The notes below the pieces were generated by a model. The model was given only the letters and a program-made list of their open reading frames with translations, ran no database searches and was not told the DNA's origin. A DNA stretch of 35,088 nucleotides from Dethiobacter sp. (lineage in GTDB: Bacteria > Bacillota > Dethiobacteria > DTU022 > UBA8154), in contig QZJM01000033.1 of NCBI GenBank assembly GCA_003605065.1, positions 1 through 35,088 of the forward strand. Direction: 5' to 3'. Positions 8,126 to 21,022 of this stretch are shown in pieces. Every line of letters starts with the position of its first letter. Position 1 is the stretch's first letter. The position numbers and the translations under genes were made by a program.

Positions 8126-8190
8126 CTATAACGCAAGGCAAGAACCGTCCCCGCTTGCTCCTATAACGCAAGGCAAGAACCGTCCCCGCT
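8126..8190. repeat. Tandem pair of a 30-bp direct repeat (CTATAACGCAAGGCAAGAACCGTCCCCGCT)
   Basis: Identical copies at 8126-8155 and 8161-8190, separated by 5 nt (tgctc). Confidence 0.95.
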
Positions 8191-8316: not shown

Positions 8317-9102
8317 CTATCCTTCCTTTTTTTCCAGCCCTTCCTCAGCCAGGAGAGCGGCACCAAGGGCTCCCACCACCTGGGGCTCCTGCGGTACTGT
8401 TATTTTAATTCCCAGACTTTCCTGCAGCGCTTTGACGATGGCTGCGTTTTTAGCCACACCCCCGGTCATCATTAATGTTCCTTCAACTCCGACACGGTTG
8501 GCCATGCTTACAGTACGCTCCACGATAGAGGTAATGATACCTTTAACAATTTCTTCCCTGGGATAGCCTTCAGCGATCAGGGAAACCACTTCCGACTCGG
8601 CAAAAACTGTGCACATACTGCTGATGGTTACCGTTTTCCTGGCCAGCGGCGCCAGACGGGACATCTCTGCCAGGTCCATCTCCAGGGCATGGGCCATTAC
8701 TTCCAGGAAGCGCCCCGTCCCCGCAGCACATTTTTCATTCATAACAAAGTCAACTACTTTACCCCGGGAATTGAGGCGTATAACCTTGCTATCCTGGCCA
8801 CCAATATCGATTACAGTCCGCACCCCGGAATCCAGGGAAAAAGCTCCCCTGCCGTGACAGGTTATCTCTGTAACTTTTTCATGAGCAAAAGGAGCACTTA
8901 CCCTCCCGTAACCGGTGGCAATAATATATTGTAAGTTATCCCGGGCCAGGCCGCTTTTTTCCAGGGCCATCTGCATGGCTTTTTCTGCGGCCACTTTGCT
9001 GTTTGCTCCGGTGGAAACGATAATACCGGCCAGGATTTTCCCTTTTTCCAGGATCACTACTTCTGTCGATAAAGAACCTATATCAACACCGGCAACAGGC
9101 AA
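8317..9102 (-). CDS. Acyl-CoA dehydratase activase (HgdC/BcrA/D-type ASKHA ATPase with [4Fe-4S])
   Basis: GVDIGSLSTEVVILEKGKI, DIGGQDSKVI, NEKCAAGTGRFLEVMA, SSMCTVFAESEVVSLI and GGVAKN motifs. A TTG start at 9102 with GGAGGGGAGGGG upstream is preferred over the track start at 9222, which overlaps the neighbouring gene. Confidence 0.92.
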   Translation of the reverse strand: MPVAGVDIGSLSTEVVILEKGKILAGIIVSTGANSKVAAEKAMQMALEKSGLARDNLQYIIATGYGRVSAPFAHEKVTEITCHGRGAFSLDSGVRTVIDIGGQDSKVIRLNSRGKVVDFVMNEKCAAGTGRFLEVMAHALEMDLAEMSRLAPLARKTVTISSMCTVFAESEVVSLIAEGYPREEIVKGIITSIVERTVSMANRVGVEGTLMMTGGVAKNAAIVKALQESLGIKITVPQEPQVVGALGAALLAEEGLEKKEG

Positions 9103-9139
9103 AATATTCCCCTCCCCTCCTGTTGTATTATGTTTTTTT

Positions 9140-10396
9140 TCAGGCAAGCATTTCCAGAAAGCCGTCAATCCTGGTTTGCACCTGCCCGGGAGCATAATTG
9201 CGGTTATCGATGCAATCACCATCCAGCACCAGAAAAGGCAGCCCCTCTTTCTGCAAAGAATCGCGTATCATCCTTAAAGAACCGCAGCTCTGCCGGCAGC
9301 CCCAGTGGGAAAAATGGATTACCCCGTCAACATTATAATCCGCGGCCAGTTCTTTAATAATTTCTATCCTGCGGCTAATGTGCCCGTAACTGAAATGGGA
9401 GAGCATGCGCCCGGCGATAGACTCCAGCGGCCTGCTAACATCCATAGCCCCCCAGTAGACGTGATTAAATTCCTCAAAAACAACCCTGGCCCCTTTTTCT
9501 TCCAGGTATTCCAGAATATTATTCCTGTAAAATGGCGGGAGATGCAGCCACAGCAGTTTGAAACGGAGAGGTTTTTCAGGGGTCTTTTTCTCCCTGATTC
9601 TCTCCTCCAGTTCCCGGGCCAGGGTCTCATACACGCGCAGCATGGCCCGGCTTCCCAGACCGGTAAAATTCAGGTAAAGATAACTAAAGGCTTCCCTGGA
9701 AGTCAGAGGGGAATAGGGGTGCCTGCGCAGCTCGTTAATTTCCTGCATGGCCCGGCGGGTTCCCTCAGCATTGGCAACAGCTTCCTGCAGCTTCCCGTTT
9801 TGTAAAGTGATACCTGTAATTTCCTCCAGGGACGAGATAATTTGCTTAAGCTGGCCAATTACATAATTAAGGGAATCATCCTCCTGTTCCACCGGCACAT
9901 CCAGGAGCATAAAGGGGCGATGATAGACCCTGGCCAGGCTTCCGAACATCAGGACAGCGCCTTCACATAGATGGGAACTGGCACAAAAAGCGCTGGGTAA
10001 GGGATAATAATGTGAAAAAAGCCCACCTATGGCACAACGATGAAAAGAGCAGTTATCCCTTCCCCACCACCTGCTCTCCGCTTCCCTGAGAAAATTTCCC
10101 TGAAATCCCAAAGAAGCTGCCAGGGCTGCGGCTATCTCCGGAGAAAAAGCAGGGATTCCCATGGCGTGAAGCAACTCCGTGGGGAAAAAAGCGCTTGTCC
10201 ATACAAACGGCAGCCGCCTGTTATAAACCTTTTTAGTTTGTTCCAGCCCGTACTCCACCATCATGGCCGTAGCCCTGTAGGGAAACTTGAGCAGGTTGTA
10301 CCGTACCATGGCCTGCCCCAGGGAATAGATCGCTGGCCGACGCAGCATATCCGGTCCTTTTTCCCGGGCCATGTATTTTTTGATCAAATCGAGCAA
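9140..10396 (-). CDS. 2-hydroxyacyl-CoA dehydratase family subunit (HgdB/FldC/DCCP-like)
   Basis: HFSHWGCRQSCGSLRMIRD and VLDGDCID...QVQTRIDGFLEML C-terminal motifs, WTSAFFPTELLHAMG N-terminal motif. TTG start at 10396 preceded by AGGGGG. Confidence 0.88.
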   Translation of the reverse strand: MLDLIKKYMAREKGPDMLRRPAIYSLGQAMVRYNLLKFPYRATAMMVEYGLEQTKKVYNRRLPFVWTSAFFPTELLHAMGIPAFSPEIAAALAASLGFQGNFLREAESRWWGRDNCSFHRCAIGGLFSHYYPLPSAFCASSHLCEGAVLMFGSLARVYHRPFMLLDVPVEQEDDSLNYVIGQLKQIISSLEEITGITLQNGKLQEAVANAEGTRRAMQEINELRRHPYSPLTSREAFSYLYLNFTGLGSRAMLRVYETLARELEERIREKKTPEKPLRFKLLWLHLPPFYRNNILEYLEEKGARVVFEEFNHVYWGAMDVSRPLESIAGRMLSHFSYGHISRRIEIIKELAADYNVDGVIHFSHWGCRQSCGSLRMIRDSLQKEGLPFLVLDGDCIDNRNYAPGQVQTRIDGFLEMLA

Positions 10397-10411
10397 GTTA
10401 TTTCCCCCTGT

Positions 10412-11509
10412 TTACCTGATCATCTCCAGAAAAGCGGAGATACGGGTGCGCATCTGTCCCGTTCCTGCCGAAGCATATTCCCCTTCCAGAATGAGCACGG
10501 GGATATCCTTTACGATTTCTTTTAACAGCTGGCCGTAATAGTACCAGGGATCACAAAATTTCAGGTAAAAAAAGATCATACCTTCAATCTGATATTTTTT
10601 AAGCATATCTTCAAGCTTAGCTAAATTTTCCCCGGCAGACTTCATACGGGCACAGGGCTCTCTCTGCAGGTACTGGCGGGCCAGGAAACTGTAGGGGTCC
10701 TCTCCGGCCTCCGGTTCCCCTGTAAATTGGAGGATACGCCTTCCGATACAGAGATCATCGAGAACCAGGACTCCTCCTGATTCATGGATTAATTTCGCCA
10801 GGCCCCCGGGCATTGAACTTCCCGTAAGAAAAATACGGGGGCCGTTCAGGGTGTTTTTCTTATTAAAAATATCCCGGGAATAAGCCTCGTAAATTTCCTG
10901 AAAATCCGCCGGGGGAAGGATCGTAAAGGCCTCCACAAGGCGGATTAGCTCATGCCCATCTGCAGCCACTTGGCCCTCCCGCCGTTCATAAAGCTGCTGC
11001 AGCCTTCGCCGGTTTTCCCGGTAAAGGTAAATTTGTTCCCAGAGCTCTTTTTCGGTGCTCTCAATTCCGCGGTATTTACTTAAAGCCCGGTGAAATTTTC
11101 GCAGCACCTGGGACCAGAACTCCCGGGCCGGCTGGGAATCGTACCTGGGAAGATCCAGTAAATAGCTGAAAGAGCAGGAACTGTATTTTTGTAAAGCAAA
11201 AAAGAGGTGTGACATGGCCAGGCAGGAATTTACCAGAACCACACCTTCCAAATTTTTTTCCTCTCCCTTAAGAACCCTTTCCAGACAGCCCCGTACAAAA
11301 AAACAAAGGCTGGAATGCAGAAAAGAATCGGCATAATAAGATGTCCCTTCCTTACCGGAAAAACGATAAGGGTGCAGCCCGCAGGAGGAAATTATTTCCA
11401 CCGGCGTGTAGCTGCAAAACCAGGCTATCTTACCATTTTTTTGCCGGAAATCGTTTTCCGCTTCTTCCAGTCTCTGCCAAAAAGCTTCTTCCCAAGCTGT
11501 CTGTCCCAA
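10412..11509 (-). CDS. 2-hydroxyacyl-CoA dehydratase family subunit (second, divergent)
   Basis: WFCSYTPVEIISSCGLHPYRFSG, VNSCLAMSHLFFAL, FFYLKFCDPWYYYGQLLKE and GQMRTRISAFLEMI motifs. TTG start at 11509 preceded by GGAGGAAGCGTT. Confidence 0.88.
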   Translation of the reverse strand: MGQTAWEEAFWQRLEEAENDFRQKNGKIAWFCSYTPVEIISSCGLHPYRFSGKEGTSYYADSFLHSSLCFFVRGCLERVLKGEEKNLEGVVLVNSCLAMSHLFFALQKYSSCSFSYLLDLPRYDSQPAREFWSQVLRKFHRALSKYRGIESTEKELWEQIYLYRENRRRLQQLYERREGQVAADGHELIRLVEAFTILPPADFQEIYEAYSRDIFNKKNTLNGPRIFLTGSSMPGGLAKLIHESGGVLVLDDLCIGRRILQFTGEPEAGEDPYSFLARQYLQREPCARMKSAGENLAKLEDMLKKYQIEGMIFFYLKFCDPWYYYGQLLKEIVKDIPVLILEGEYASAGTGQMRTRISAFLEMIR

Positions 11510-11535: not shown

Positions 11536-12126
11536 TTAATCAGCTTCTTCAAGCTTTTTTTCTATAATCCTGCACAGCTCCTCCCGTCCTTCCCTTGTTC
11601 CCGAAGAAAAAAGCAGTACTTCTTCAGGGGCAACTTCTAAAGCACGGGCAACGAGCTGTCTCTGTTTTTCCCTTTTTCCACGGGGAACTTTATCGGCTTT
11701 GGTAGCCACCACCACGGCTGGCAAAGAGAAATGGCGCAGCCAGGCAGCCATCTGTTGATCCTGTTCAGAAGGCTCATGACGCAAATCTACCAGGAGAATA
11801 ACCATGATTATGGTCTTCCTGTTTACAAGGAAATCCTCAATAAGGGAACCCCATTCCTTCTGCTGCTGGTGGGAAACCCTGGCATAGCCGTACCCCGGCA
11901 GGTCAACAAGAAACCATGAATCGTTAACAAAATAAAAATGAACAGCACGGGTTTTACCGGGAGTATTGCTTGTCCTGGCCAGGTTCCTGCGTTCTACCAG
12001 GGTATTAATAAGCGAGGACTTACCCACATTAGAACGCCCGGCCAGGGCAATCTCCGGGAATCTTTCCGGCGGAAAATCGTTCTTACTGCAAGCTAACTTT
12101 AAGAGTTCCGCTTTCTTTACTTTCAT
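11536..12126 (-). CDS. engB: Ribosome biogenesis GTP-binding protein EngB/YsxC
   Basis: [36 protein letters not shown] and [12 protein letters not shown]. Downstream of lonA as in many Firmicutes. Confidence 0.95.
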
Positions 12127-19625: not shown

Positions 19626-19990
19626 TTATTATGCTAACCTCCTTTTATTTAACAGGACATTGAAGTACCTCGAAGATATATATATTAAAAAGAATTCCGG
19701 CCGGGCAGGCCGCTTTCCTTTGATACCTGTTTTAAACCATAGTATTTATTTATCATAGTAAGCCCATAATTTCAAGTCCTCGAAAAAAAGACGCCGTTTA
19801 GGCGATTACTTGGAAAATAATATTTTAACTGCATCCCCATTTTAACATAACAAGATGTGGCTGACAATAAAAAAACACCTTTTGGTATGAAAAATAGCGC
19901 ATCGTTTGCCGGCGGCGCAGTTCCGGCAGGATTTTCCTCTCTCCGCAAAGAATATTTATAAGAATAGCTTTGAGGAAAGGATGCTCCGCC

Positions 19991-21022
19991 ATGATCGATT
20001 TTATCACAAAAACGTTATCCACTACCATTCTGGATCCCCGGCAAGGCTTTTCCCCCAAAACCATAGAAACAGAGGTCCGCTATGATCCCCTAACGGGAGA
20101 AAGCGGGAGACTGGCCCATTTCGGCATGATTAAACCGCAAAAAGAAGATTTCTCTTCCTGGGATACTCCGGAAAACCGCAGCCGCTGTCCTTTTTGTTCT
20201 CCAAACATCGACACGGTAACACCAAGATTTCCCCCGGAGCTGCTCCCCGGAGGGCATCTGCACAGGGGCAAAACAAGGGTTATTCCCAATATTGCCCCCT
20301 ATGATCAGTACAGCGCCCTGACAATCATAAGCCCGGAGCACATCGTGCCATTGGAAAAATTGACCATACCGGTTCTAAAAGAAGCTTTTACGGCAGGACT
20401 TGAATTTTTCCACCTTGTAGCGGAAAAGGACCAGGAGTTCCCCTACCATACCATCGCCTGGAACTATATGCCTCCCTCCGGTGGAGGGCTGGTTCACCCC
20501 CATCAACAGGTTATTATCAGCGATTCTCCCGGCAACCTTTACCGTAAAACCATGGAGAAAAGTAGGGATTATTACCGGCGTTACGGTAAAAACTACTGGA
20601 AGGAACTCTGCAGTACAGAGAAAAACCGGGAGGAAAGATTTATTGGAGAACTGGACGGCAGCTGCTGGCTGACCTCTTTTGTTCCCCTGGGTGTCCTGGG
20701 AGAATTTTGGGGTATTTTCCCGGAAATAAACACCATTTTTGACTTCGACGAAACAACACTTGAAGAACTGGCTAACGGGCTGGAGCGCCTGTTTCAGTAT
20801 TTTATTTCGGCCGGAATTTACAGCTTTAACATGGGCCTGTTTTTTGCACCAGCAGGTGAAGCGGAGGAATATCTCTCCCTCCATGCCCGTATTATACCGC
20901 GGACATTCCTGAATCTGCTGCAAAAACCTTCCGATATCAACGCTCTCCAGCTTGTCTTACAGGAACCCTTTACAGTAATCAGCCCGGAAGCACAATGTGC
21001 GGAGCTTAAAGCTTTCTGGTAA
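19991..21022 (+). CDS. Galactose-1-phosphate uridylyltransferase-like nucleotidyltransferase (HIT superfamily)
   Basis: CPFC zinc pair, WNYMPPSGGGLVHPHQQVIISD (HxHxQ active site) and GIFPEINTIFDF. Start at the ATG at 19991 (GAGGAAAGGA upstream) rather than the TTG at 19970. Confidence 0.82.
   Translation: MIDFITKTLSTTILDPRQGFSPKTIETEVRYDPLTGESGRLAHFGMIKPQKEDFSSWDTPENRSRCPFCSPNIDTVTPRFPPELLPGGHLHRGKTRVIPNIAPYDQYSALTIISPEHIVPLEKLTIPVLKEAFTAGLEFFHLVAEKDQEFPYHTIAWNYMPPSGGGLVHPHQQVIISDSPGNLYRKTMEKSRDYYRRYGKNYWKELCSTEKNREERFIGELDGSCWLTSFVPLGVLGEFWGIFPEINTIFDFDETTLEELANGLERLFQYFISAGIYSFNMGLFFAPAGEAEEYLSLHARIIPRTFLNLLQKPSDINALQLVLQEPFTVISPEAQCAELKAFW

Follow-up and report, generated by a model that had tools for sequence, protein, structure and literature searches.

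A conserved three-gene cassette of the BCR/HAD family in Dethiobacter sp., predicted to encode an ATP-dependent low-potential reductase

BzdNO is the catalytic dimer of an ATP-dependent reductase (PDB 8s02; PMC11971306). The BzdN subunit coordinates an [8Fe-9S] cluster through Cys36, Cys73, Cys100, Cys263, Cys293 and Cys327. BzdO carries a [4Fe-4S]-OH2 cluster held by Cys95, Cys128 and Cys380, with Glu65 and His131 nearby, and its Tyr97 is hydrogen-bonded to the thioester oxygen of the substrate (PMC11971306). PlsA and Ger are reductases of the same BCR/HAD family that act on lipids and not on CoA esters (PMC13274423, PMC12838417). Here we describe a cassette of this family, composed of genes B, A and C, at positions 8317-11509 of contig QZJM01000033.1 from Dethiobacter sp. 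(GCA_003605065.1). The window, i.e. the whole stretch of 35,088 nucleotides that was analysed, is contig 23 of a 2.34-Mb draft genome that is 91% complete. We hold, with somewhat more belief than doubt, that A, B and C together form an ATP-dependent reductase of very low potential, its clusters and activity being predicted. We class the cassette as a variant inside the BCR/HAD family and not as a system of a new kind. Its genes are as follows.

10412-11509, minus strand: gene B, HGD-D subunit of 365 residues, BzdN-like, predicted holder of an [8Fe-9S] double cubane
9140-10396, minus strand: gene A, HGD-D catalytic subunit of 418 residues, BzdO/HadB-like, with a predicted open-site [4Fe-4S] cluster
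8317-9102, minus strand: gene C, HgdC-type ASKHA activase of 261 residues with a TTG start, predicted ATP-driven electron donor

The first-pass annotation of the window had placed here three co-directional genes for two HGD-D proteins and an activase. This description was borne out, with all three genes located on the minus strand. PF06050 matched A with 252.5 bits and B with 229.5 bits, and C matched PF01869 (213 bits) and TIGR00241 (269 bits, above the cut-off of 125.4). By these domains and by fold, the cassette belongs to the BCR/HAD superfamily. C aligns end to end with MbdQ, HadI, HgdC and DCCP-R, both Cys motifs included, the first three being its closest relatives; its sequence thus identifies it, by fold family and by the two motifs, as an HgdC/TIGR00241-type activase. 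None of the curated NCBIfam equivalogs reached its cut-off for A or B, including the BzdN/BzdO or BcrC/BcrB models (95.8 of 453.8 and 65.2 of 448.6 bits), the HadB and HadC models (106 of 750 and 83.5 of 700 bits) and the double_cubane model NF040772 (B 150.3 and A 99.5 bits, cut-off 350). AlphaFold2 models of A and B had mean confidence (pLDDT) values of 91.6 and 91.9. BzdN is both the best PDB sequence match and the best fold match of B (8s02_B, TM-score 0.88), and the fold of A matches HadB (TM-score 0.82-0.84) and BzdO (0.81-0.83).

Relatives were fetched with the motifs D[NS]C[SA]FHRC or FSHWGCRQ, which yielded 72 loci from one scan of named genomes, nearly all metagenome-assembled; B never served as a query. 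Since these strings were used to fetch the loci, their conservation in A is partly by construction, and the conservation of B and of Glu87, Cys144 and Ala69 of A is independent of them. The putative cluster ligands of the three proteins are encoded at the following positions, with counts referring to 66 aligned A proteins.

11414-11416, minus strand: B Cys32, equivalent of BzdN Cys36, lacking in HadC and MbdN, invariant in alignment A4
11303-11305, minus strand: B Cys69, BzdN Cys73 by alignment
11222-11224, minus strand: B Cys96 in VNSCLAM, BzdN Cys100 by alignment
10748-10750, minus strand: B Cys254, BzdN Cys263, lacking in HadC and MbdN
10652-10654, minus strand: B Cys286, BzdN Cys293 by alignment
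10553-10555, minus strand: B Cys319 in KFCDPW, BzdN Cys327 by alignment
10136-10138, minus strand: A Glu87, BzdO Glu65 and HadB Glu55 by alignment, 66/66
10049-10051, minus strand: A Cys116 in DNCSFHRC, BzdO Cys95, 66/66
9965-9967, minus strand: A Cys144 in SSHLCEGA, BzdO Cys128, 66/66
9296-9298, minus strand: A Cys367 in HWGCRQ, BzdO Cys380, 66/66
8728-8730, minus strand: C Cys125 in NEKCAAGTG, activase cluster ligand by alignment
8611-8613, minus strand: C Cys164 in SSMCTVFAESE, activase cluster ligand by alignment

The six double-cubane Cys of B are kept in essentially every complete copy, the exceptions being truncated or misaligned rows, and the arginines next to the distal subcluster of BzdN are also retained (R49 for Arg53, R258 for Arg267). 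A has the three [4Fe-4S] Cys and Glu87 only; the other three double-cubane Cys are missing. Judged by these residues, A and B display the ligand distribution of BzdNO, with a predicted double cubane in one subunit and a predicted single cluster in the other. The motifs quoted in the first-pass annotation were all found (GCRQSCG in A, VNSCLAM and KFCDPW in B, NEKCAAGTG and SSMCTVFAESE in C). The reading of GCRQSCG as a Cys motif holds for its first Cys, the universally kept C367, but not for its second, as position 371 is Cys in only 21 of the 66 relatives. The same six-Cys/three-Cys split is seen in a pair on contig 37 of the same genome and in the HGD-D pairs of sister families here termed X. 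The BzdNO-like build is thus common, and it is the pocket, not the build, that distinguishes A.

The following codon marks the pocket of A.

10043-10045, minus strand: A Phe118, aligned with BzdO Tyr97; 62 of 66 A proteins have Phe here

A Tyr occupies this position in HadB, BzdO, MbdO, the contig 37 protein and the alpha subunit of X. At the position of HadB Ser37, an active-site residue of HAD, 2 of the 66 A proteins have Ser and the others Ala, Leu or Val. Around the third Cys, HWGCRQ is invariant in A (again partly by construction), and the CoA-ester group has [NKR][RK][SG]C-like sequences there. Taken together, these pocket changes suggest another substrate head group, still compatible with CoA binding.

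By analogy with the BzdNO and DCCP systems, C, presumably a homodimer with one [4Fe-4S] cluster, would take single electrons from ferredoxin or flavodoxin and drive them into B upon ATP hydrolysis. The electrons would be stored on the [8Fe-9S] double cubane of B and then handed to the [4Fe-4S]-OH2 centre of A, where the bound substrate would be reduced by two electrons and two protons with Glu87 as the proton donor. The computations establish gene content and linkage, ligand sets, folds and the clade of A; the presence of the clusters, this electron path and the reductase chemistry are what we infer. The BzdNO architecture with one activase instead of two favours an ATP-driven reductase and disfavours a 2-hydroxyacyl-CoA dehydratase. 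A double-cubane-type ATP-dependent low-potential reductase had already been suggested in the first-pass annotation; the six Cys of B support it, but the cassette does not encode a DCCP proper. As A lacks the second Cys set, the complex would be heterodimeric like BzdNO.

The cassette is conserved as a unit. The gene order clpP-clpX-lonB-lonA-engB-B-A-C-bioY-birA is kept in six loci from at least four genera of the same family. In other members of this family, some of them congeneric with carriers, engB lies directly beside bioY with no trace of the cassette, which can thus be lost as a whole even within a carrier-containing genus. The 72 loci come from Bacillota, Chloroflexota, Actinomycetota, Thermodesulfobacteriota/Myxococcota and Thermotogota, and are ordered B-A-C in 31 cases, B-A in 20 and A-C in 11, some of the B-A and A-C arrangements resulting from contig ends and fusions. 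B is fused to C in Thermotogota and in two relatives of the window, and A to C in three Thermodesulfobacteriota. Pairwise distances are correlated between A and B (rho 0.77, 0 of 500 permutations), A and C (0.87) and B and C (0.69); the permutation leaves shared species history in place. A chance arrangement is excluded, as synteny of the three genes holds across at least four genera and the unit turns up again in dozens of loci from other phyla.

Phylogenetic trees placed A in a clade apart from HadB and MbdO, with support of 99/94 in a 75-row tree and 98/95 in a 57-row tree that included pair X and YjiM. Clustering with a characterised dehydratase, a possibility raised in the first-pass annotation, was therefore not seen against the references HadB and MbdO; HgdA, FldB and LcdA sequences were left out of the set. 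DCCP and YjiM branch off outside the group of beta-type subunits (99/95 and 94/96). B formed a monophyletic group in the 75-row tree (87/82), which was lost once pair X and YjiM were added. The robust clade is that of A only.

The genes around the cassette offer little that would point to a CoA pathway. Clustering of the neighbours over the loci returned mostly housekeeping families. No CoA-transferase or CoA-ligase was found beside the cassette in the window, no CoA-transferase family recurs near it in the 72 loci, and an AMP-ligase occurs in 5 of the 72, at 3-10 kb from the cassette, with no consistent ligase. The lack of a CoA-activating gene noted on first inspection thus extends from the window to the wider set. 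One enzyme alone recurs beside the cassette across phyla, a SPASM radical-SAM protein that nine loci from Bacillota, Thermodesulfobacteriota/Myxococcota and Chloroflexota encode, mostly directly adjacent, with 36-73% identity to the L087 copy (L087, 12144-13655). No named or curated model scored above cut-off for this protein. Its homolog in the genome studied here lies away from the cassette, by formate dehydrogenase genes. The idea that it might be an Mss-like lipid synthase was dropped, as SkfB and anSME came up among its PDB matches instead of Tes, and the protein passed no curated model. Other neighbours were lineage-specific and shared no theme (NAD-related genes in Humimicrobiia, an upstream GerMN-like lipoprotein, an upstream response regulator, a Sua5-like gene in Thermotogota). 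A benzene-activation cluster (PMC13101534) was compared and gave no match.

A housekeeping setting, the lack of CoA genes and the loss of the thioester Tyr together suggest, weakly, that the substrate is some metabolite in wide use and not an acyl-CoA ester of catabolism. The most direct competitor is an acyl- or aryl-CoA reductase of the class I type that resembles BzdNO in substrate too and whose CoA ester would be made by enzymes encoded elsewhere. It shares the cluster architecture of BzdNO and folds matching BzdO and BzdN; CoA-ligases and a CaiB-type transferase are present elsewhere in the genome, and the PF06050 relatives of known function in the class of A use CoA esters. However, A lies outside the HadB/MbdO group and lacks equivalents of Tyr97 and His131, there is one activase and not two, no CoA gene is consistent over the 72 loci, and a distinct four-gene cluster like BzdNOPQ is already encoded on contig 37 of the genome. 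We consider this alternative unlikely. A 2-hydroxyacyl-CoA dehydratase of the amino-acid fermentation type, as the Pfam name implies and as the first-pass annotation had allowed for an acyl-CoA, would fit the PF06050 name, HadB as the best PDB match of A, and the resemblance of C to HadI and HgdC. It is disfavoured, and to our mind quite improbable, given the split of A from HadB, an Ala in place of HadB Ser37, scores far under the HadB and HadC cut-offs, the lack of a CoA-transferase, and a B subunit that retains the double-cubane ligands lost in HadC instead of its reduced Cys set. The dehydratase annotation of the cassette is probably wrong.

Two further explanations were weighed. A DCCP-like protein would reduce a small inorganic or organic molecule, or supply a partner enzyme, for instance the nearby radical-SAM protein, with electrons of low potential. 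The six Cys of B and the single activase are as in DCCP:DCCP-R, and nine loci from three phyla have the SPASM protein next to or close to the cassette; yet DCCP and YjiM fall outside in the trees, A has one cluster site, so that no homodimer is expected, and most cassettes, including the present one, have no radical-SAM gene nearby. Such a role appears improbable. A three-gene version of a PlsA/Ger-like reductase that turns lipid esters into ethers would suit the lipid substrates of these family members, a housekeeping location and ether-lipid-rich taxa such as Thermotogota. It was rejected as scarcely credible, because the genome has a separate 1444-residue protein of that architecture on contig 12, with two activase domains and no PF06050 match, and thus a different domain content; moreover, the adjacent radical-SAM protein does not have the lipid synthase Tes among its PDB matches.

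Several points weigh against an ATP-driven reductase with a substrate of its own. HGD-D subunits are so alike that the cluster type could deviate from the ligand count. The substrate class does not follow from the cluster architecture, since the BzdNOPQ-like cluster of contig 37 has the same Cys sets. At the position of BzdO His131, for which a proton-relay role has been proposed, A has Ala, and no His is among the residues found there. HadB remains the best sequence and fold match of A. Finally, sister families of the order (L185, L186, L187) have an activase alone between engB and bioY, without A or B there, that is 62-66% identical to C; the engB-linked activase may therefore have been in place before B-A joined it, and more than one pair may depend on it. 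No A homolog was found in some of the genomes with this lone activase. In sister families B-A occupies another site, several times preceded by a radical-SAM gene (L073, L075, L076, L078), or the X pair, with six and three Cys, lies near hisG, aspartokinase and a UbiA-type prenyltransferase (L248-L256, e.g. L248 7948-10414). No activase is adjacent to the X pair in L248-L256, and its activase is likely the engB-linked one.

Upstream of the cassette lies the following neighbour, assigned on the basis of synteny over at least four genera.

11536-12126, minus strand: engB, upstream neighbour of B

The genes engB, B, A and C all lie on the minus strand, separated by gaps of 26 bp (engB to B), 15 bp (B to A) and 37 bp (A to C), and engB and the cassette are probably on one transcript. 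The neighbours engB, lon, birA and bioY were confirmed in the window, with clpX, clpP, tig, valS and folC farther out. Reading of the sequence gave TTG starts with a good Shine-Dalgarno for all three cassette genes. The longest open reading frame for C begins with ATG at 9222 and runs into A. The TTG at 9102, preceded by a AGGAGGGGAGGGG Shine-Dalgarno, is the likely start (261 residues) and agrees better with the ortholog lengths of 256-271 residues. Between C and bioY (8126-8190) there are two 30-bp direct copies of AGCGGGGACGGTTCTTGCCTTGCGTTATAG on the minus strand, with a period of 35, that the tandem-repeat finder missed. A 350-residue open reading frame without a Pfam match is located at 19970-21022 on the plus strand, between tig and an NAD synthase gene.

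Other HGD-D and activase genes occur in this genome (G000). On contig 37 (L053, 2228-6350), two HGD-D genes, one with the six double-cubane Cys, and two activase genes form a BzdNOPQ-like cluster followed by a branched-chain-type ABC transporter; this cluster may encode a class I aryl-CoA reductase or another reductase. On contig 34 (L054, 6545-10392), an 877-residue protein with two HGD-D domains adjoins a CaiB-type CoA-transferase, parts of a peptide ABC transporter and a gene resembling those of glycyl radical enzymes. Contig 5 (L055, 6827-8921) encodes tandem proteins with the C-terminal HGD-D half only, a few kb downstream of a spoIIAA-spoIIAB-sigF-like and spoVA-like region. The 1444-residue PlsA/Ger-like protein (L143, contig 12, 4150-8484) implies that the organism may make plasmalogens or ether lipids.

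As its heterodimer is widespread, has the same ligand set, uses one activase and lacks a CoA setting, the cassette is a practical candidate for a second function of double cubanes. The cassette could even represent a third functional class of the BCR/HAD family, an ATP-driven double-cubane reductase that would serve a conserved anaerobic pathway by acting on a metabolite other than CoA esters, would occur in at least five bacterial phyla, in some of them together with a SPASM radical-SAM protein, and would be hidden by its annotation as 2-hydroxyacyl-CoA dehydratase; this proposal is tentative and we regard it as rather doubtful. Our results suggest that the dehydratase annotation is wrong for many genes of anaerobes, and the Cys and Phe/Tyr signatures may be used to sort such genes.

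Compared with BzdNO(PQ), the class I benzoyl-CoA reductase of Aromatoleum, the cassette has the same HGD-D heterodimer, with six Cys and distal arginines in one subunit and three Cys and a Glu in the other, and an ATP-driven activase. It differs by an identity of ~20-25%, by a single activase instead of P and Q, here and in the B-A-C loci, by the replacement of Tyr97 and His131, by another gene setting with no CoA ligase, and by the place of A in another clade. With DCCP:DCCP-R of Carboxydothermus and YjiM:YjiL of E. coli it shares the double-cubane ligands in B, one activase and no known CoA pathway, but DCCP is a homodimer with a double cubane per subunit, whereas the cassette encodes two paralogous subunits with six (B) and three (A) Cys. 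HadBC with HadI, the (R)-2-hydroxyisocaproyl-CoA dehydratase system, has the same fold, three-gene set, activase type, and alpha subunit with three Cys and a Glu; unlike B, which keeps Cys32 and Cys254, HadC has lost the double-cubane ligands, and in the cassette HadB Ser37 and the Tyr are not kept and a HadA-type CoA-transferase is lacking. Finally, whereas PlsA/PlsR and Ger, of plasmalogen and ether-lipid formation, are large fused proteins with two activase domains and the cassette comprises three separate genes, they resemble it as ATP-driven reductases of the BCR/HAD family with non-CoA substrates.

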